Shown one piece after another: positions 8,253 through 62,616 of a stretch of DNA of 64,000 nt. The number at the start of each line of letters is the position of its first letter. Position 1 is the stretch's first letter. Position numbers and translations under genes: made by a program. The DNA is from Betaproteobacteria bacterium (GTDB lineage: Bacteria > Pseudomonadota > Gammaproteobacteria > Burkholderiales > CAIKXV01). The stretch is from positions 124,001-188,000 of the forward strand of contig CANGYF010000007.1 of NCBI GenBank assembly GCA_947458265.1, given 5' to 3'. The notes beneath the pieces are model-generated. The model saw nothing but the letters and a program-made list of their open reading frames with translations. It was not told the DNA's origin and did no database searches.

Positions 8253-9713
8253 TCACGCCAGCCTTGGCTCCCGCTGCCGGCGCACCTTGTCCAAGAGCAG
8301 CGCCAGGTCATCGAGCCGGTAGGGCTTGGCAAGGAAATCGTCCATGCCGGCGGCGAGGCATTCCTGCCGGTCTTCTTCATATGCATTCGCGGTGAGCGCG
8401 ACCACGTGCGGCTGGCGCGCGAGCGCAAGCGAACGGATGTGCCGCGTCGATTCGAGTCCGTCCATGCGCGGCATCCGCACGTCCATCAGCACGAGGTCGT
8501 AGCTGCCGGCACGCACCTTGTCCAGCGCAGACTGCCCGTCCTCGGCCACATCCGGCTGCAGGCCCAGGCGTTCCAGCAAGGCGCAGGCAATCTCGCGATT
8601 GATCTCGTTATCCTCCGCCAGCAGTATCCGCAGCGCTGGCGCGCCGGATGGAGCGTCCGCCGGGACCGAAGACGTGCCGGCAGCGCAAGACAGCGTCGGA
8701 GATGCCGCGGCGGCTGCCGGGCTTGCCCGCCATCGCAACAGGAACTGCGAGCCGACGCCGGGCGTGCTTTGCAATTCCAGCGAGCCCTGCATCAGTTTCG
8801 CGATCCGTCGGCAGATCGAAAGGCCGAGGCCGGTTCCACCATACTCGCGCGAGGTGCTCGCATCGGCCTGGGCGAACGGATCGAAGACCGCCTCCAGGCG
8901 ATCGCCCGGGATGCCGATCCCGGTGTCCTTCACCGTGAGTTCGACCGGGACCCTGCCTTCCTCATCGGGCGGCCCCGCCGTCAGTCGCACCACGACGCCA
9001 CCGCGCGAGGTGAACTTCACTGCATTCGAAGCCAGGTTGAGCAGCACCTGCCGCAACCGCATGTCGTCGCCGACCAGCCGTTCCGGTACCGCGTCGTCGA
9101 CCTGGACCAGGAAGTAGATGCCACGCCCGACCGCCGATCCGCGCAGCAGCGAATCGATGCTCGCCAGCGACGCGCGGGGATCGAACGGACGTGATTCGAG
9201 CTCCAGATGTCCGGCCTCGATCTTCGACAGGTCCAGTATGTCGTTGATGAGCGAAAGCAGCAGATCGCCGCTTGCACCAATGGTGGCGGCATGGGCCTGC
9301 TGCTCGGGCGTGAGCGGCGTCCCGAGCAGCAATTGCGCCGCACCGAGCACGCCGATCATCGGCGTGCGCAGTTCGTGGCTCATCGTCGCCAGGAAGTTCG
9401 ACTTCGCTCGCGCTGCCTCGTTGGCGCGCGCGACTGCGGCCTCCAGTTCGCGTGTACGCGCTTCCACCTGGGCCTCGAGCGAGCCGGCGAGGCGGGTCAG
9501 CGCCACGTTCGCTTCGTACAGTTCGCGGCTGCGTACCTCCAGCAGCGCCTCTGCCTCGCGCCGCGCCGCGCGCTCGCGCAGGGCGCGGCGTTGCAGCCGG
9601 GCGATCTCGGCAGCCGCGTCCTCCGGCACAGGTGGCGCGGGTGGCGCGGATGGCGCGGAGGCAACCGCGTCGACGGAAGGTGGGGCTTTACTGCCCACCT
9701 CGGGCTGTTTCAC
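8253..9713 (-). CDS. soluble hybrid histidine kinase (HisKA-HATPase-receiver), H-NOX partner
   Basis: This 486-residue kinase has no membrane segment or sensor domain of its own. Residues 1-35 are Pro/Ala-rich and 36-105 form a coiled coil. The HisKA box MSHELRTP has the phospho-acceptor His at 113. The ATPase has NAVKFT, DTGIGIPGD and GTGLGLSICRRI. The C-terminal receiver starts LRILLAEDN and has the acceptor Asp at 411 in LMDVRMPRMDG. The GTG start overlaps the H-NOX stop by four bases (GTGA), so translation is coupled. Known H-NOX-associated kinases are inhibited by NO-bound H-NOX; that this one behaves the same is inference. No Hpt or output regulator is nearby, so the phosphorelay must continue elsewhere. 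Confidence 0.93.
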   Translation of the reverse strand: MKQPEVGSKAPPSVDAVASAPSAPPAPPVPEDAAAEIARLQRRALRERAARREAEALLEVRSRELYEANVALTRLAGSLEAQVEARTRELEAAVARANEAARAKSNFLATMSHELRTPMIGVLGAAQLLLGTPLTPEQQAHAATIGASGDLLLSLINDILDLSKIEAGHLELESRPFDPRASLASIDSLLRGSAVGRGIYFLVQVDDAVPERLVGDDMRLRQVLLNLASNAVKFTSRGGVVVRLTAGPPDEEGRVPVELTVKDTGIGIPGDRLEAVFDPFAQADASTSREYGGTGLGLSICRRIAKLMQGSLELQSTPGVGSQFLLRWRASPAAAAASPTLSCAAGTSSVPADAPSGAPALRILLAEDNEINREIACALLERLGLQPDVAEDGQSALDKVRAGSYDLVLMDVRMPRMDGLESTRHIRSLALARQPHVVALTANAYEEDRQECLAAGMDDFLAKPYRLDDLALLLDKVRRQREPRLA

Positions 9714-10252
9714 TCCTGAACCAGCGTGAAGCGGCTGCCGTCGGCATGGGTGGCGCCAAGCGGGGCCCGTCGCACCTGCACGCCGCCACCGAACCGCAGC
9801 ACGCAGGCGTCGATCAGGCCGTGCGCAAGCGCGTCCATGCAGCGCGGCGAACGGTAGTCGAGCACGAGCGTGCGCGCGTCCGGACGGCTGATCTCGAATG
9901 CAGGCAACTCGGCATCCGGATAGAGCTTGCGCACTTCGACGTGGATAACCTCCTCGATGCCGGCCAGCATCGAGAATGCGTCGCGATGCTCATCGACGAA
10001 CACGGGGAACGCCGTCGCGAGCGAAGTGAACAGCCCAGTGCCGAACCAGTGCAGCACATCATCGGTCGGCTGTCCGGTGCGTGCCGCCAGTGCCACCACC
10101 AGTTTCACCATCTCCCGATGGTCGTAGGTGCCGACGGAGGTATAGGCGCCGCCAGACGGAAGGTCGCAGGAATCGATGAGATCGTCCACCATCGCGGGCG
10201 ACCAGGTACGTTCCACGAACTCCAGGAACTCCGTAAAGACCATGCCCTTCAT
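9710..10252 (-). CDS. H-NOX heme nitric oxide/oxygen-binding sensor protein
   Basis: A 180-residue stand-alone H-NOX (HNOB) domain, the bacterial relative of the soluble guanylate cyclase heme domain. It starts MKGMVFTEFLEFVE as in the family. The proximal heme ligand is His104 in VIHVEVRKLYP. The porphyrin-propionate motif YxSxR is Y133-S135-R137. The length equals that of other single-domain H-NOX proteins. It comes first in a two-gene unit with the kinase. Such pairs usually detect low NO and control biofilm or quorum behaviour. A distal-pocket Tyr, which favours O2 binding, cannot be judged by eye. Confidence 0.95.
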   Translation of the reverse strand: MKGMVFTEFLEFVERTWSPAMVDDLIDSCDLPSGGAYTSVGTYDHREMVKLVVALAARTGQPTDDVLHWFGTGLFTSLATAFPVFVDEHRDAFSMLAGIEEVIHVEVRKLYPDAELPAFEISRPDARTLVLDYRSPRCMDALAHGLIDACVLRFGGGVQVRRAPLGATHADGSRFTLVQE

Positions 10253-25165: not shown

Positions 25166-26832
25166 TCTCCAGGAAGCGTGCAGGAATCGAAACGGAAGGC
25201 GCTGGCCGGTTCGGCCGCGCGCGCCAGCGGTTCGCGGATGCGGCGGATCATCGCGAACGCATGCGGGGCGGCGCGCAGCAGCAGTTCGAACCGGCGTTCG
25301 TCGAGGTCCAGCCCGGCCTGGCCGGCCAGCGCCGCAGCAGCGGCGCGCACCTGCGGCGTCACGCGCGCATCCAGCGGCGCCGCCGGCGCCAGCTCCACCG
25401 GCGGACGCGGTGTACCAGGCACCAGCACAGGCCGGCGCGCCTGCCAGCCGGTCGCGCGTTCATAGGCATGGCCGACGCGCAGCACGGTCGACTCATCGAA
25501 CGGACGGCCACCGATCTGCAGGCCCATCGGCAGGCCGTTGCCGGCAAAGCCGCAGCAGACGATCAGCGCCGGGTTGCCGAGCACGCTGAACGGCGAGAAC
25601 AGCGACGGCTTCTCCCAGAAGGACACCGTGCGGTGCGCATCGAGCCTGGGCGCAGGACCGGCGCCAGGGGTGACGAGCACATCGAACCGCTCGTACAGCG
25701 GCAGCGCCGCCTCGAGCAGGCCGCGCCGTACCCGCTGCGCGAGCATGTAGTCGGACGCCTGGAACAGCGCGCCGGCGAGGCCGCCACGGCCGAGGAAGTC
25801 CTCGCCGAAGTCGGCGGGCCGCGACACCAGCGCGTCCCGGTAGATCGAGAACAGCTCGGACAGCGAGATCACCGTCTTCACATCGTGATAGACCTGTGCC
25901 GGATGCATCCGTATCTCTTCGACGCTCGCGCCGAGCGATCGCAGCACGTCCAGGGCCGCTTCGGTCGCGCGCACCAGTTCGGCCGGGGTGTCGACATCCT
26001 GCTCCCACAGGTGGCGGGCGACACCGATGCGCACGCCGCGCAGGTCTTCCTGCCCGCGCAGTGCGGCACGGTAGTCCGGCACCGCCCGCGCGGCGCTGGC
26101 CGGATCCGCTGGATCATGGCCGGCGATCGCCTGCAGCAGGATCGCGCAATCCTCCACCGTGCGCGCCATCGGGCCGCAGTGGTCGAAGGACCACGAGTTC
26201 GGCAGCACGCCGCCACGGCTGACCAGGCCATACGTGGGCTTGAGCCCGGCCAGGCCGCACAGCGCCGACGGCGTGCGGATCGAGCCTCCGGTATCGCTGC
26301 CGAGCGCGGCCGGGACGAAGCCGGCCGCCAGCGCGGCACCCGGACCGCTGCTCGACCCCCCGGTGATGTGCTCGAGGTTCCACGGATTGCGCGCCGGGGG
26401 CCAGGGCAGGTCGAGCGACGGCCCGCCGTGCGCGAACTCGTGCGTGGCCAGCTTGCCCAGCAGCACGGCTCCTGCCGCCTGCAGCTTCGCCACCGCGAAG
26501 CCGTCGCGCGCCGGGACATTGTCGATGCAGATGCGGGAATGGCCCGAGGTGAGCACGCCCGCGGTGTCGAAGATGTCCTTCAACGCGAACGGCATGCCAT
26601 GCATCGGCCCGCGCCAGCCACCGCCTGCGATCTCGGATTCGGCCCGACGTGCCTGCGCCAGCGCGGCATCGGCGGTGACGGTGATGAATGCATTGACCTG
26701 CGGGTCGATCGCCTCGATGCGATCGAGCAGCGAACGGGCGAGTTCGACCGGCGACAGTTGCCTCGCCGCGATCAGCTCCGCGAGCCTGGACAGCGTGAGT
26801 TCGTGCAGCGGGGCGCCACCTGCGTCACTCAC
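25162..26832 (-). CDS. amidase-signature hydrolase
   Basis: A 556-residue enzyme of the amidase signature family, cytosolic, expected to hydrolyse an amide to acid and ammonia. The Ser-cisSer-Lys triad is visible: Lys85 in FALKDIF, cis-Ser160 in GGSSSGPG and nucleophile Ser184 in SDTGGSIR. It is longer than GatA (about 480) and no gatB/gatC is adjacent, so an amide-catabolic role downstream of nitrile hydratase is favoured. The start is GTG at 26832, overlapping the kinase stop by eight bases. Confidence 0.93.
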   Translation of the reverse strand: MSDAGGAPLHELTLSRLAELIAARQLSPVELARSLLDRIEAIDPQVNAFITVTADAALAQARRAESEIAGGGWRGPMHGMPFALKDIFDTAGVLTSGHSRICIDNVPARDGFAVAKLQAAGAVLLGKLATHEFAHGGPSLDLPWPPARNPWNLEHITGGSSSGPGAALAAGFVPAALGSDTGGSIRTPSALCGLAGLKPTYGLVSRGGVLPNSWSFDHCGPMARTVEDCAILLQAIAGHDPADPASAARAVPDYRAALRGQEDLRGVRIGVARHLWEQDVDTPAELVRATEAALDVLRSLGASVEEIRMHPAQVYHDVKTVISLSELFSIYRDALVSRPADFGEDFLGRGGLAGALFQASDYMLAQRVRRGLLEAALPLYERFDVLVTPGAGPAPRLDAHRTVSFWEKPSLFSPFSVLGNPALIVCCGFAGNGLPMGLQIGGRPFDESTVLRVGHAYERATGWQARRPVLVPGTPRPPVELAPAAPLDARVTPQVRAAAAALAGQAGLDLDERRFELLLRAAPHAFAMIRRIREPLARAAEPASAFRFDSCTLPGE

Positions 26833-29080
26833 CGGCCTGCTCCGTGCCTACGCGTGCCAGCGATTGCAGCGCACGCACGAAATCCGCCGGGGACACCGGC
26901 TTGCGCAGCACCGGGATTCCGTCCTGCCCGGCAATCGTGTCCACGTTCCATGGAGCCTCCCCGGTAATGAGGACGCAGAGCGTACCGAAATCCCTCGACC
27001 GGGCAAACCGCAGCACATCCAGGCCGCTGCCGCTGGGCAGCCGGAAGTCGCACAGCACGGCGTCGAAGCGGACGGACGCGAGCCGTTCGATCGCATCGGG
27101 CACGTCGGATGCGAGCGTGACCATGGCCCCCCAGCTGGACAGCATGGCCGCGGTCGCCTCCGCCACCAGCACGTCGTCCTCGACCACCAGGATTCTGGCA
27201 GAGAGGCGCAGGTAAGCTTCGACAGCCGGGTGCGATTGCTCGATCCCCGGCTCGCACGGCTGCACGGTCACCATGAACGTCGCGCCAGCCCCCTGCGCGG
27301 ATTCGACGGCGAGCGGATGGTCCAGCAGGCGCGCGAGCTTGTCGACGATCGCCAGCCCGAGGCCGATGCCCTTGCGCCGGTCGCGCTCAGGATTGTCGAG
27401 CTGCCGGAACTCCTCGAAGATCTCGCGCTGCTTGTCTGCGGGTATGCCCACGCCGGTGTCTTCCACCGCCAGCACCAGTCCGTGAGCCCCGCGCGAACAG
27501 CGCAGCGTGACGCGGCCACCGGTCGGCGTGAACTTGATCGCGTTCGACACCAGGTTGCGCAGGATGCGGCTGAGCAGCGTCGGGTCGGAGTACACCCATC
27601 CGTCGCAGCGCATCAGCGTGAACTCGACCCCCTTCTCGGCGGCGATCGCGATGAACTCGTTGTGTATCGTGGACAGGATCGACGCCAGGGGCACCGGCTG
27701 CATGCGCGGCACGATGCGCCCGCTGTCGAGCTGCGCGACGTCGACCAGGGTCTCGACCATCGCACCCAGGTGGCTCACCGCGCGGTTGACGATCTGCGCC
27801 GAGCGCGCCTGCTGCCCGGGCGGGAGGGGGCGTGCCAGCACCTGCGCGATCAGTGCCAGGGTTTGCAGCGGCTGGCGCAGGTCGTGGCTGGCCGAGGCGA
27901 GGAACTCGGTCTTGGCGGCGCTGATGCGTACCGCCTCGTCGCGCGCTGCGCGCAGCTGGTCCTCGACCGCCTGCTTCTCGCGGATGCGCCGTCCGATCTC
28001 GTCGAGCAGGTGGTCCAGCGCGGCGGCGATCCGGTCGACCTCGCTGCGCGTGCGCAGGACGCCGGTGCGCGCCGCGAAGTTGCCCGCCTGCACCGCATGC
28101 ACCACATCCAGGATCGCCGCCAGCGGCCGCTGGATGAACAGCCGCACCAGCAGCAGCGTGAGCAGCAGCCCGGTGAACAGTGCCAACAGGGCCACTGCCT
28201 TGCTGCGCACGCTCGCCGCGTTGATCTCGCGCAGCGCACGATCGCGGTCGAGGCCGACCAGGATGCTGATGCCCTCGGGGGCCACGCTGTCCGGGACGTA
28301 GGCGACGATCTGGTCGCGGGTGTCGAAGAATGGCTCCGGTTCCTTCTCGACGATGCCGGACGAGGCGGCCTTCAGCAGCGGCGACCACGAGTCGGGCAGC
28401 AGCGCGCCGCTGCGGTCGGGGCCCGGAAGGTTCGTGATGATCCGGCCGTGCGTGTCGGCCACCACCACCAGCGCACCCGCCTGCAGCGGCTTGCGCGCGA
28501 ATTGTTCGGCCAGCCAGCTGAGCTTGAGCGAGGCGAACACGACCCCGGTCACCTGCCCGGTCCGCGCATCCTTGACCGGGTACGCGAAGCCGAACACCTT
28601 GTTCCCGGTGACCCGCCCGACGAACAGGTCGCCGATGGCGAAGCGGCCGGTCTCCATCGCCACGCGGAAGTGCCGGCGATCGGCGTTCGACACCCTGCCG
28701 CGCTCGAACGGCTCGTTCAGGCAGCGCACCACCCCGTCGGGGCCGGTGACCCCGATGTTGGACACGAACTCGAAGGCCTGCTGCAGGCGCGCCATGTAGG
28801 CATCGCAGGCGGCATCCTCGCGCAGCGCTTCGGGCGCATTGGCCGCCGCGACCAGCAGCTGCTCCATGCCGGTCACGATGCGCTGCAGCTCGCCGGACAG
28901 CATGTCGGCCTGCGCGGTCGCGGTGCGGCGCAGTTCATCCCCCCGCTCGAGGCGCAGCCGCCAGTCGTTGTAGACCTCCACCGAGACAGCGGGTACCACC
29001 GCGACAAGGAGCAGCAGGATCAGGCGTGTACTGAGCGACAAGTGGATCTCCGGGTGGGCCGGCCTGCGGGGCATGCTCAT
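26825..29080 (-). CDS. membrane hybrid sensor histidine kinase, extracytoplasmic sensor and receiver
   Basis: A 751-residue protein. Membrane segments are at about 19-37 and 307-327. Between them is a Cache-like sensor of about 265 residues (RRHFRVAMETGRFAIGD is typical). A HAMP-like linker and coiled coil lead to HisKA with SASHDLRQPLQTL. HATPase motifs are NAIKFTPTGG, DTGVGIPAD and GIGLGLAIVDK. The C-terminal receiver starts ARILVVEDD, with the acceptor Asp in LCDFRLPSGSG. It is first in the run amidase-Bug-hydratase-MoeA and overlaps the amidase. It probably senses a substrate of that pathway; no DNA-binding partner is in the window. Confidence 0.92.
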   Translation of the reverse strand: MSMPRRPAHPEIHLSLSTRLILLLLVAVVPAVSVEVYNDWRLRLERGDELRRTATAQADMLSGELQRIVTGMEQLLVAAANAPEALREDAACDAYMARLQQAFEFVSNIGVTGPDGVVRCLNEPFERGRVSNADRRHFRVAMETGRFAIGDLFVGRVTGNKVFGFAYPVKDARTGQVTGVVFASLKLSWLAEQFARKPLQAGALVVVADTHGRIITNLPGPDRSGALLPDSWSPLLKAASSGIVEKEPEPFFDTRDQIVAYVPDSVAPEGISILVGLDRDRALREINAASVRSKAVALLALFTGLLLTLLLVRLFIQRPLAAILDVVHAVQAGNFAARTGVLRTRSEVDRIAAALDHLLDEIGRRIREKQAVEDQLRAARDEAVRISAAKTEFLASASHDLRQPLQTLALIAQVLARPLPPGQQARSAQIVNRAVSHLGAMVETLVDVAQLDSGRIVPRMQPVPLASILSTIHNEFIAIAAEKGVEFTLMRCDGWVYSDPTLLSRILRNLVSNAIKFTPTGGRVTLRCSRGAHGLVLAVEDTGVGIPADKQREIFEEFRQLDNPERDRRKGIGLGLAIVDKLARLLDHPLAVESAQGAGATFMVTVQPCEPGIEQSHPAVEAYLRLSARILVVEDDVLVAEATAAMLSSWGAMVTLASDVPDAIERLASVRFDAVLCDFRLPSGSGLDVLRFARSRDFGTLCVLITGEAPWNVDTIAGQDGIPVLRKPVSPADFVRALQSLARVGTEQAGE

Positions 29081-60371: not shown

Positions 60372-61121
60372 ATGGGGTCGACAACACTCACGATGCAGCC
60401 GGCCGCGGTCGAGTTTTCCGGCGTGAACCGGCAGTTCGGCGGCAGGCGCGCCGCGGCCGACGTGTCGTTCGCCGTACATGCCGGCGAGCGCTTCGCGCTG
60501 GTCGGCGTGAACGGCGCCGGCAAGACCACCCTGCTGCGCTGCATGCTCGACTACTGCCGCGTCGACAGCGGCAGCATCCATGTGTTCGGCGTGCCCAGCA
60601 CGCGCGCCGAGGCGCGCAGCCATCTAGCCTGGCTGCCCGAGCGGTTCTCCCCGCCCCATTACCTGACCGGGCGCGACTACCTGCGCTACCACGCGGCGCT
60701 GCGCGGCATGCGCCATGACGAAGCAGCGGCTCTGGAGCGGCTGCGCGAACTCGATTTCGATCCCGAGGCCCTGGGCCGCCCGGCGCGCACCTTCAGCAAG
60801 GGCATGCTGCAGAAGCTCGGGCTCGCCGCCTGCCTGCTGGCCCGGCGGCCGCTGACCGTGCTCGATGAACCGATGAGCGGACTGGACCCCCTCGCGCGGT
60901 CGCGGGTACGCACCACCCTCGCCAGCCTGCGCGACGGCGGCGGCACCCTCCTGTTCAGTTCACACTCTCTGGAAGACGTGGAGGCGCTGTGCGATCGCAT
61001 GGCGGTGATCCACGACGGGCGGGTCGCATTCGCGGGCACGCCGGCGGAACTTTCGGCCCGGTTCGACACAACGATGCTGGAACAGGCCTTTCTCCGCTGC
61101 ATCGGCGTTGCCGCCGCATGA
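60372..61121 (+). CDS. lone ABC transporter ATP-binding protein
   Basis: A 249-residue ATPase with Walker A GVNGAGKTT, signature FSKGMLQKLGLA, Walker B LTVLDEPMSGLDP and H-loop SSHSLEDVE. The FSKGM signature is like CcmA/NosF/YhaQ-type exporters. No permease is adjacent; the next gene, 40 bases on, is a regulator. Its membrane partner is likely elsewhere, so substrate is unknown. Confidence 0.9.
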   Translation: MGSTTLTMQPAAVEFSGVNRQFGGRRAAADVSFAVHAGERFALVGVNGAGKTTLLRCMLDYCRVDSGSIHVFGVPSTRAEARSHLAWLPERFSPPHYLTGRDYLRYHAALRGMRHDEAAALERLRELDFDPEALGRPARTFSKGMLQKLGLAACLLARRPLTVLDEPMSGLDPLARSRVRTTLASLRDGGGTLLFSSHSLEDVEALCDRMAVIHDGRVAFAGTPAELSARFDTTMLEQAFLRCIGVAAA

Positions 61122-61161
61122 GACGATAGCGGCGCTATCACAATCCACGCTCCGGACCCCG

Positions 61162-62616
61162 ATGGCCGACGCCACGCGTAAACCCGCCCTGCTGATCGTC
61201 GACGACGACCCGCTGATCACCGACACGCTCGACTACTCGCTGGCCGGCGACTATGAGGTGCTGGCGGCCGCGTCCCGTCCGCAGGTGCATGCACTGCTGC
61301 GCCAGGTCGGCCGGATGCCCGGGCTGGCGCTGATCGACCTCGGACTGCCGCCCTCGCCGCACCGGCCGGACGAGGGCTTCCAACTGATCACCGAACTGCT
61401 GGCGGCCTCGCCATCGATGAAGATCATCGTGCTGTCCGGGCAGAACGACGAGACCAATGCGCGCCATGCACGGGCGATCGGTGCCATCGAATTCGTCTCC
61501 AAGCCCTGTGCGCCCGATCGCCTGCGGACACTGCTGGCGCAGGTCAGCCACGTCCCGGTGCCCGAGCCGGCCAGCGAATCCGACCGCGCGATCGTCGGCG
61601 CCAGCCCGGCCGTGGAGCGACTGCGCCAGCAGATCGTGCAATACGCAGCCGCTCCGTTCCCGGTCCTGATCGAGGGTGAGTCGGGCAGCGGAAAGGAACT
61701 GGTCGCGCGCGCGCTGCATTCGCGCAGCGGCCATGCAGCGCGCCCGCTGATCGCACTGAACTGCGCGGCGATCGCACCGACGCTGGTCGAACCGACGCTG
61801 TTCGGCCATGCCCGCGGAGCCTTCACCGGCGCCACCGGTGCGCAGGCAGGCTTTTTCGAGGACGCGGCCGATTCCACCCTGTTCCTCGACGAGATCGGTG
61901 AACTGCCGCTGGAGCTGCAGTCGAAACTGCTGCGCGTCCTCGAGGATGGCGAATTCCAGCGCGTGGGCGAGACCACCAGCCGCCATTCGAATGCCCGCGT
62001 GATCGCGGCGAGCAACCGCGACCTGCGCCAGGAAGTGCGGGCCGGGCGCTTCCGCGGCGACCTGTACCACCGGCTGTCGGTGTTCGCGATCACCGTGCCG
62101 CCGCTGCGCGACCTGTCGGACGACAAGCTGCTGCTGCTCGAGCACTTCCGGCAGCGCTATGCCACACCGACCGGCGTCCCGGCCCGCGAGCCGTTCACGC
62201 TCGACGACGACAGCCGGCGCATCTGGCTCGAATACGGGTTCCCCGGAAACGTGCGCGAGCTGCGCAACATCGTCATCCGGCTGGCGACCAAGTATCCGGG
62301 CCAGCGCGTGGTGCCGGAGCAGCTGCTCGCCGAACTCGACGTCGAGTCCGCCCCCGCCGACGGTAATGGCTTGATGGCCCTGTCCGGCATGCCGGGCACC
62401 CCGGGCGAGACCGGATCGGTGGAAGCCGCCCGGCGCCACCTGGCCAGCTCACGCCAGATCGACCTCGACCGCCTCCTGCAAGAATGGGAGCAGAGCTACA
62501 TCCAGGCTGCCCTGTTCATCACGCACGGCAACCTCGCCCAGGCAGCACGCCTGCTCGGCCTGCGGCGCACCACCCTGTACAGCCGCATGCAGGCGAGCGG
62601 GCGCGGGACCGACTGA
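61162..62616 (+). CDS. sigma-54-dependent response regulator, NtrC family, PrsR-like
   Basis: A 484-residue regulator from ATG 61162 (MADATRKPALLIVDDDP). The receiver acceptor Asp is in ALIDLGLPPSPHRPDEG, a stretch also seen in PEP-CTERM regulator PrsR. The AAA+ domain has GESGSGKE (Walker A), GAFTGA (sigma-54 contact) and LFLDEIGELP (Walker B). The C-terminal Fis-type HTH is LAQAARLLGLRRTTLYSRM. The stop overlaps the next ATG by one base. The kinase is not in the window. Confidence 0.92.
   Translation: MADATRKPALLIVDDDPLITDTLDYSLAGDYEVLAAASRPQVHALLRQVGRMPGLALIDLGLPPSPHRPDEGFQLITELLAASPSMKIIVLSGQNDETNARHARAIGAIEFVSKPCAPDRLRTLLAQVSHVPVPEPASESDRAIVGASPAVERLRQQIVQYAAAPFPVLIEGESGSGKELVARALHSRSGHAARPLIALNCAAIAPTLVEPTLFGHARGAFTGATGAQAGFFEDAADSTLFLDEIGELPLELQSKLLRVLEDGEFQRVGETTSRHSNARVIAASNRDLRQEVRAGRFRGDLYHRLSVFAITVPPLRDLSDDKLLLLEHFRQRYATPTGVPAREPFTLDDDSRRIWLEYGFPGNVRELRNIVIRLATKYPGQRVVPEQLLAELDVESAPADGNGLMALSGMPGTPGETGSVEAARRHLASSRQIDLDRLLQEWEQSYIQAALFITHGNLAQAARLLGLRRTTLYSRMQASGRGTD

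Follow-up and report, generated by a model that had tools for sequence, protein, structure and literature searches.

A stand-alone H-NOX protein and the soluble hybrid histidine kinase encoded immediately after it in the window (the whole 64,000-nucleotide stretch of DNA analysed here) are likely to form a nitric oxide (NO)-controlled kinase module, a reading to which we assign a probability of roughly 0.6. NO-bound H-NOX would dock on a conserved helix at the N-terminus of the kinase and lower autophosphorylation at the phospho-acceptor H113, with a phosphorelay leading onward. The association between this helix and H-NOX genes is strong; the mechanism built on it is a proposal. The combination of hnoX and a hybrid kinase gene is an ordinary and known arrangement (hnoX-hqsK, hahK or hnoK). 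The shared helix matters because, as the accessible part of a review from 2022 has it, complexes of an H-NOX protein with its partner had not been solved at high resolution by then (PMC8738867). If the helix is the docking site, it offers one short testable contact common to many outputs; it could also lead to H-NOX targets whose genes are far from hnoX and perhaps serve as a part for engineering NO-responsive enzymes.

Both genes lie on the minus strand. The hnoX gene (positions 9710..10252) encodes a 180-residue protein recognised by the Pfam HNOB profile (PF07700), and the kinase gene (8253..9713), identified by Pfam profiles and AlphaFold2, has a GTG start and encodes 486 residues. The four bases GTGA (9710..9713) are shared by the H-NOX stop codon (TGA) and the kinase start codon (GTG). 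The pair is flanked by SulP on one side and by a cupin gene and dnaE on the other, so no Hpt, regulator or cyclic-di-GMP enzyme adjoins it. The initial annotation had described a stand-alone H-NOX with H104 and Y133/S135/R137, the GTGA overlap and the lack of such neighbours, and the Pfam match, the located residues and the flanking genes bear out all of these points.

The H-NOX protein matches PF07700 at E=1.6e-35 and 122.9 bits (curated cut-off 25.5) and is the one H-NOX match in the whole source genome (~4.0 Mb, 33 contigs, 97% complete). The solved H-NOX proteins nearest to it by sequence are 6ocv (E=9.8e-36) and 4u99 (E=4.3e-18). Among 28 aligned H-NOX proteins, the window's included, P117, Y133, S135 and the predicted proximal heme ligand H104 (codon at 9941..9943, minus strand) are invariant, while R137, the last residue of the Y133-x-S135-x-R137 motif (9842..9856, minus strand), is found in at least 90%. 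L142 stands at what we take to be the position of Tyr140 of O2-binding H-NOX proteins. The conserved motifs suggest that the ferrous protein would bind NO at the H104 heme.

The kinase has three domains recognised by Pfam, all on the minus strand: a HisKA (DHp) domain at residues 103-168 (9210..9407), with H113 at 9375-9377; a HATPase_c catalytic domain at residues 215-329 (8727..9071); and a receiver (Response_reg) domain at residues 363-471 (8301..8627), with D411 at 8481-8483 and K463. No Pfam sensor domain is found in the kinase at E 0.001, and the strongest 19-residue hydropathy window scores 1.28, below the usual threshold of about 1.6 for transmembrane segments, so a transmembrane helix is not expected. 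In adjoining hnoX, having a HisKA-HATPase-REC order and lacking a sensor domain, the kinase is of the HqsK/HahK type. An AlphaFold2 model of the monomer, built from 34 aligned kinases, has a mean pLDDT of 86.3 and a pTM of 0.67. Residues 1-32 are mostly of low confidence, whereas residues 33-130 (9324..9617, minus strand) are predicted as a single helix (pLDDT per 10-residue block 79-96), which runs unbroken through H113 and through a motif conserved among H-NOX partners (residues ~36-73, 9495..9608, minus strand), linking that motif to DHp helix 1. The earlier description of the kinase as sensorless stands as far as Pfam sensor domains go and is otherwise incomplete, since the conserved N-terminal helix is a plausible input element. 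In the monomer model, which is silent on H-NOX binding, it appears as the sole evident input element of the kinase.

Conservation of the helix was examined at 80 H-NOX loci gathered by H-NOX similarity alone. In the window kinase and 72 downstream open reading frames (ORFs; n=73), Pfam detects HATPase_c in 59, Response_reg in 49, GGDEF in 11, EAL in nine and Hpt in four. Across these 73 partners the columns R46, A50, R51, A54, E55, E59, L65 and N69 (window-kinase numbering) are nearly invariant, and they precede every recognised domain of the kinase. A helix profile of 36 columns was made from rows trimmed to the window-kinase columns; rows L022, L049 and L057 have insertions and are hence non-contiguous in it, and L059, L082, L083 and L087 were left out of training. 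A second alignment, A2, holds 39 rows at no more than 72% identity and omits L022, L049 and L057. The profile scores at least 35.9 bits in the H-NOX-adjacent ORF at 76 of the 80 loci, and the best score of any other ORF, kinases included, is 6.8 bits. Two of the four remaining loci end too early to be scored (L091 is cut inside H-NOX, and L032 at most 47 codons into the next gene, where the last letters look helix-like by eye), and two, L082 and L083, count as misses, in which the neighbour of H-NOX is GlgC-like and has no helix. Eight of the 76 matches lie outside the training rows (L048, L054, L058, L059, L073, L074, L078 and L087), and in seven of these the partner gene is upstream of H-NOX. 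At L073, L074 and L078 the order is helix-kinase, single receiver, H-NOX, with the receiver ORF overlapping both neighbours. The H-NOX neighbour in a Chloroflexi metagenome-assembled genome (MAG; L022:6607-11352) has two copies of the helix.

The helix is also shared across output types and replicons. A profile trained on 58 rows without cyclic-di-GMP partners recovers 11 of 11 such partners at 33-51 bits; as five of these loci are rhizobial and three come from Agrobacterium vitis, they form about five independent groups. On plasmids, which lay outside training, 18 records matched and 11 were fetched, including two from Vibrio, one from Pseudoalteromonas and three rhizobial ones. All 11 have the helix in the ORF just after H-NOX (17-54 bits; next best at most 0.6), and as L202/L207 and L204/L205 are near-duplicates they amount to about nine independent cases. 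Of the seven unfetched records, two are from Bradyrhizobium and five from Vibrio, the latter equalling the fetched ones in H-NOX identity. Seven of the 11 plasmid partners were assigned by Pfam as one PAS-GGDEF-EAL, one HisKA-HATPase-REC, two HisKA-HATPase-REC-Hpt, one GAF-GGDEF-EAL and two receiverless kinases; receiverless kinase partners on plasmids of the Vibrio coralliilyticus type carry the helix. At L203 and L204 the helix and the long ORF that follows are in different frames. A plasmid search with the 38-residue helix sequence alone gave no match.

The converse scan took in the class as represented by 321 genomes. Helix matches number 17, in 14 genomes, and H-NOX matches 27, in 22; both are present in 12 genomes, a co-occurrence with Fisher p = 2.7e-14 when kinship is ignored. 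Twelve of the 17 helix matches adjoin H-NOX, and 11 of these start within 170 bases of the H-NOX match. Two of the twelve are atypical: in G330, one of the 11, a frame of 59 residues, separate from the 216-residue kinase ORF and situated between it and H-NOX, bears the helix, and in G038, the twelfth, it is internal (around residue 379) to an adjacent REC-GGDEF-HATPase ORF. The helix-bearing kinase of G181 is 12.5 kb from H-NOX, and directly downstream of that H-NOX comes what by eye is a gene for a receiver/sigma-54 activator (L149:16297-18275). The other four helix copies are gene pairs scoring 25-34 bits in G080 and G210 (L147, L148), genomes of one genus that are 78% and 64% complete and in which H-NOX was not found; the G080 pair is GGDEF-EAL by Pfam, and that of G210 looks similar by eye.

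Fifteen of the 27 H-NOX matches have no helix above threshold alongside, so the helix marks the partnered H-NOX proteins of this and related types and not every H-NOX. At two of these loci an HNOBA-domain partner takes the place of the helix, a hybrid kinase in G324 (L134:2194-4380) and a GGDEF-EAL protein on contig C4 of G200 (L135:4561-6339). The kinase beside H-NOX in G149 has a weak helix look-alike (4.2 bits, or 7.7 when the profile is widened by plasmid rows), and that of G051 has neither helix nor HNOBA. In G313, H-NOX lies between MCP and PAS-GGDEF genes with no helix, in G181 it precedes the receiver/sigma-54 gene described above, and the G275 match is a fragment. No same-strand signalling ORF was seen by eye within 500 bases of the eight others (two each in G330 and G311, and one each in G202, G328, G111 and G074); three of their neighbours, when scanned with Pfam, proved to be a rhodanese, a hydrolase and a porin.

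Several simple readings of the helix were rejected. It is not a by-product of gene overlap: 21 of 72 relatives could have the 4-base overlap between H-NOX and partner genes, and the helix is seen both with such overlaps and with gaps, at varied distances from the start codon, and where the partner is upstream of H-NOX (seven loci). Neither is it a general mark of NO-sensor partners, being absent from 30 FIST loci (best 4.5 bits), although a kinase ORF is visible in the fetched flank of just six of the 30. FIST itself occurs in 119 of the 321 genomes, and among the helix-bearing genomes FIST and helix matches are always on different contigs. A known Pfam family can be dismissed, as the window helix has no match at E 1 and the other helix members show scattered weak ones, no single family being matched by more than 4 of 39. 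Nor is the helix part of a solved structure, a PDB search having returned two weak partial matches. No published description of the partner helix was found in the accessible portions of the open-licence literature. Studies that reportedly mapped the interface between H-NOX and its partners (Rao 2017, Guo 2018, Lahiri 2014) are cited in PMC8738867, and the helix is therefore not claimed as unpublished.

Taken across loci, the helix may act as an address label: on balance we lean, by a small margin over even odds, towards H-NOX proteins of this type recognising a portable N-terminal helix of ~35 residues that is joined to varied outputs (hybrid kinases, plain kinases, GGDEF-EAL, GAF-GGDEF, GAF-GGDEF-EAL and PAS-GGDEF-EAL proteins) and makes them NO-regulated in trans, with other partners using HNOBA for the same job. 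A competing and distinctly less probable explanation is that the helix is a generic signalling or dimerisation coiled coil, that the docking site of H-NOX is somewhere else, such as the DHp or catalytic domain, and that conservation reflects co-inheritance. Many signalling proteins are indeed reported to share a conserved signalling helix some 40 residues long (PMC1592074, accessible text), and by eye the C-terminal half of the stretch (LExxVxxRTxEL) is generic-looking. However, the stretch is shared by unrelated outputs, other ORFs of the same loci do not exceed 6.8 bits even where they are kinases, and an occurrence in 14 of 321 genomes is far rarer than expected of generic coiled coils.

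With residues ~36-73 as a putative docking and input helix, the proposed sequence of events in the window pair is as follows. Ferrous H-NOX would take up NO at the H104 heme, and the NO-bound protein would then bind the kinase in trans, docking on the N-terminal helix (residues about 36-73). As this helix is continuous into DHp helix 1, binding could change helix packing and would thereby make H113 autophosphorylate less, leaving D411 less phosphorylated in turn, as both the relatives and the predicted fold suggest. The initial annotation pointed to the known regulation of partner kinases by H-NOX proteins on NO binding, and for control of an adjacent kinase by a stand-alone H-NOX the available portions of two reports supply good precedents (PMC6759604, PMC12369376), from which the same may be supposed for this pair by analogy. 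The sign of regulation is not guaranteed: as far as the accessible texts go, all H-NOX states tested in V. parahaemolyticus inhibit HqsK autophosphorylation to some degree, the NO-bound state most (75%; PMC6759604), and NO-bound Caulobacter H-NOX leaves its kinase uninhibited, the protein being responsive to oxidation of its cysteines (PMC12329717).

The window pair resembles the Vibrio systems H-NOX/HqsK and HnoX/HahK in that hnoX and a hybrid kinase gene form an operon and in having His-to-Asp transfer within the kinase. The two Vibrio kinases rely on a free Hpt protein: in the parts of the reports available, LuxU alone of three Hpt proteins is phosphorylated in V. parahaemolyticus (PMC6759604), and V. 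fischeri HahK works via LuxU and via the Hpt domain that forms part of another kinase, SypF (PMC12369376). In contrast, no free-standing Hpt scores above cut-off anywhere in the source genome, which is 97% complete and could hold a divergent Hpt that escapes the profile; two weaker matches reach 13.1 and 12.0 bits. A LuxU-type output is accordingly unlikely, and the output of the window kinase is probably not of the plain LuxU type. The initial annotation had left the output open and called for such a genome-wide search.

Eight Hpt matches in the source genome are above cut-off, four in CheA-like proteins and four in hybrid kinases. Three of the CheA-like proteins have CheW domains; the fourth (L112) has no CheW match and is loosely assigned. 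In the hybrid kinases the Hpt domain is C-terminal, that of L110 scoring 23.5 against a cut-off of 24.6 when the protein is scanned singly. Because no free-standing Hpt was found, the most likely route for the phosphate of D411 would be a relay to an Hpt domain in one of these other hybrid kinases. Receiver similarity does not single out a candidate, as the receiver that matches better in each one shows 44-50% identity. It is also conceivable, if rather doubtful, that the receiver stands outside any relay, D411 serving as a phosphate sink or a regulator of the kinase while a separate response regulator takes its signal straight from H113. The lack of a free-standing Hpt above cut-off fits this, as does the number of receiver matches, 46 genome-wide with 45 above cut-off; yet four H-NOX neighbours among the 73 aligned and two encoded on plasmids have an Hpt domain of their own, in some of them placed after the receiver, and an Hpt domain is likewise part of four hybrid kinases in the source genome.

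Two of the candidate hybrid kinases lie on contig C21 of the source genome, and as a guess they would be the first choice for convergence on cyclic-di-GMP. One (~3.7-7.7 kb; L110:3659-7686) has two receivers and an Hpt domain and adjoins a REC-GGDEF gene, a possible cyclic-di-GMP output. The other follows a FIST-FIST_C gene (~10.2-14.7 kb; L109:2187-6676) and has the order PAS-PAS-HisKA-HATPase-REC-Hpt; this pair is a candidate second NO module of the genome, of the NosP/NahK kind. The window pair is like NosP/NahK in that NO sensor and kinase are separate and unlike it in using H-NOX instead of FIST. The three FIST matches of the source genome are on contigs C21, C6 and C20, and the window pair is on C7.

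That the window H-NOX instead senses redox state by way of a zinc-cysteine site, a role put forward for the Vibrio cholerae and Caulobacter proteins in the accessible parts of the precedents (PMC7108781, PMC12329717), is highly improbable, since it has cysteine at none of the three aligned zinc-cysteine columns (those in L202, L205 and L206), unlike S. oneidensis H-NOX, for which zinc cysteines are described (PMC7108781). The cysteines of the window protein are residues 29, 138 and 150.

Other characterised systems share parts of this design. Shewanella HnoK is not known to have a sensor domain, and Shewanella HnoX/HnoK resembles the window pair in combining a stand-alone H-NOX with a separate kinase, which H-NOX controls in Shewanella. 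Unlike the window pair, HnoK is reported to signal to a response regulator, HnoB, and the accessible text of the same source describes H-NOX partners that are diguanylate cyclases and H-NOX acting on its neighbour in trans (PMC8846402). The output of the H-NOX/diguanylate cyclase systems of Shewanella woodyi and Dinoroseobacter is cyclic-di-GMP turnover, as opposed to phosphotransfer in the kinase pair; as in those systems, some loci here have cyclic-di-GMP partners, and these GGDEF-EAL proteins share the N-terminal helix with the window kinase.

Within its genus the hnoX-kinase pair behaves as a presence/absence unit. The pair is found in three of 11 genomes; the kinase matches in those same three are at 72-100% identity and all others at 47% or less, so the two genes are present together and missing together, several of the genomes being incomplete. 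In the source genome (G000) and G004 the pair sits between the cupin/dnaE side and sulP/metG, and the G002 contig holds the sulP/metG side of the pair only. Cupin adjoins sulP with the pair absent in G003 and G009 (~0.36 and 0.84 kb between match ends), other DNA separates them in G001 and G008 (7.6 and 3.6 kb), the G010 contig ends at the cupin/sulP site, and G005, G006 and G007 have no cupin match. The two nearest named relatives are betaproteobacterial MAGs with 85% H-NOX identity (L012, L013).

Two more receiver proteins are encoded inside the 64-kb window, ~17 and ~51 kb from the pair. The first is a dCache hybrid histidine kinase (26825-29080, minus strand) whose gene overlaps an amidase gene, and the second a sigma-54-type response regulator (61108-62616, plus strand) encoded immediately behind an ABC transporter ATPase gene.
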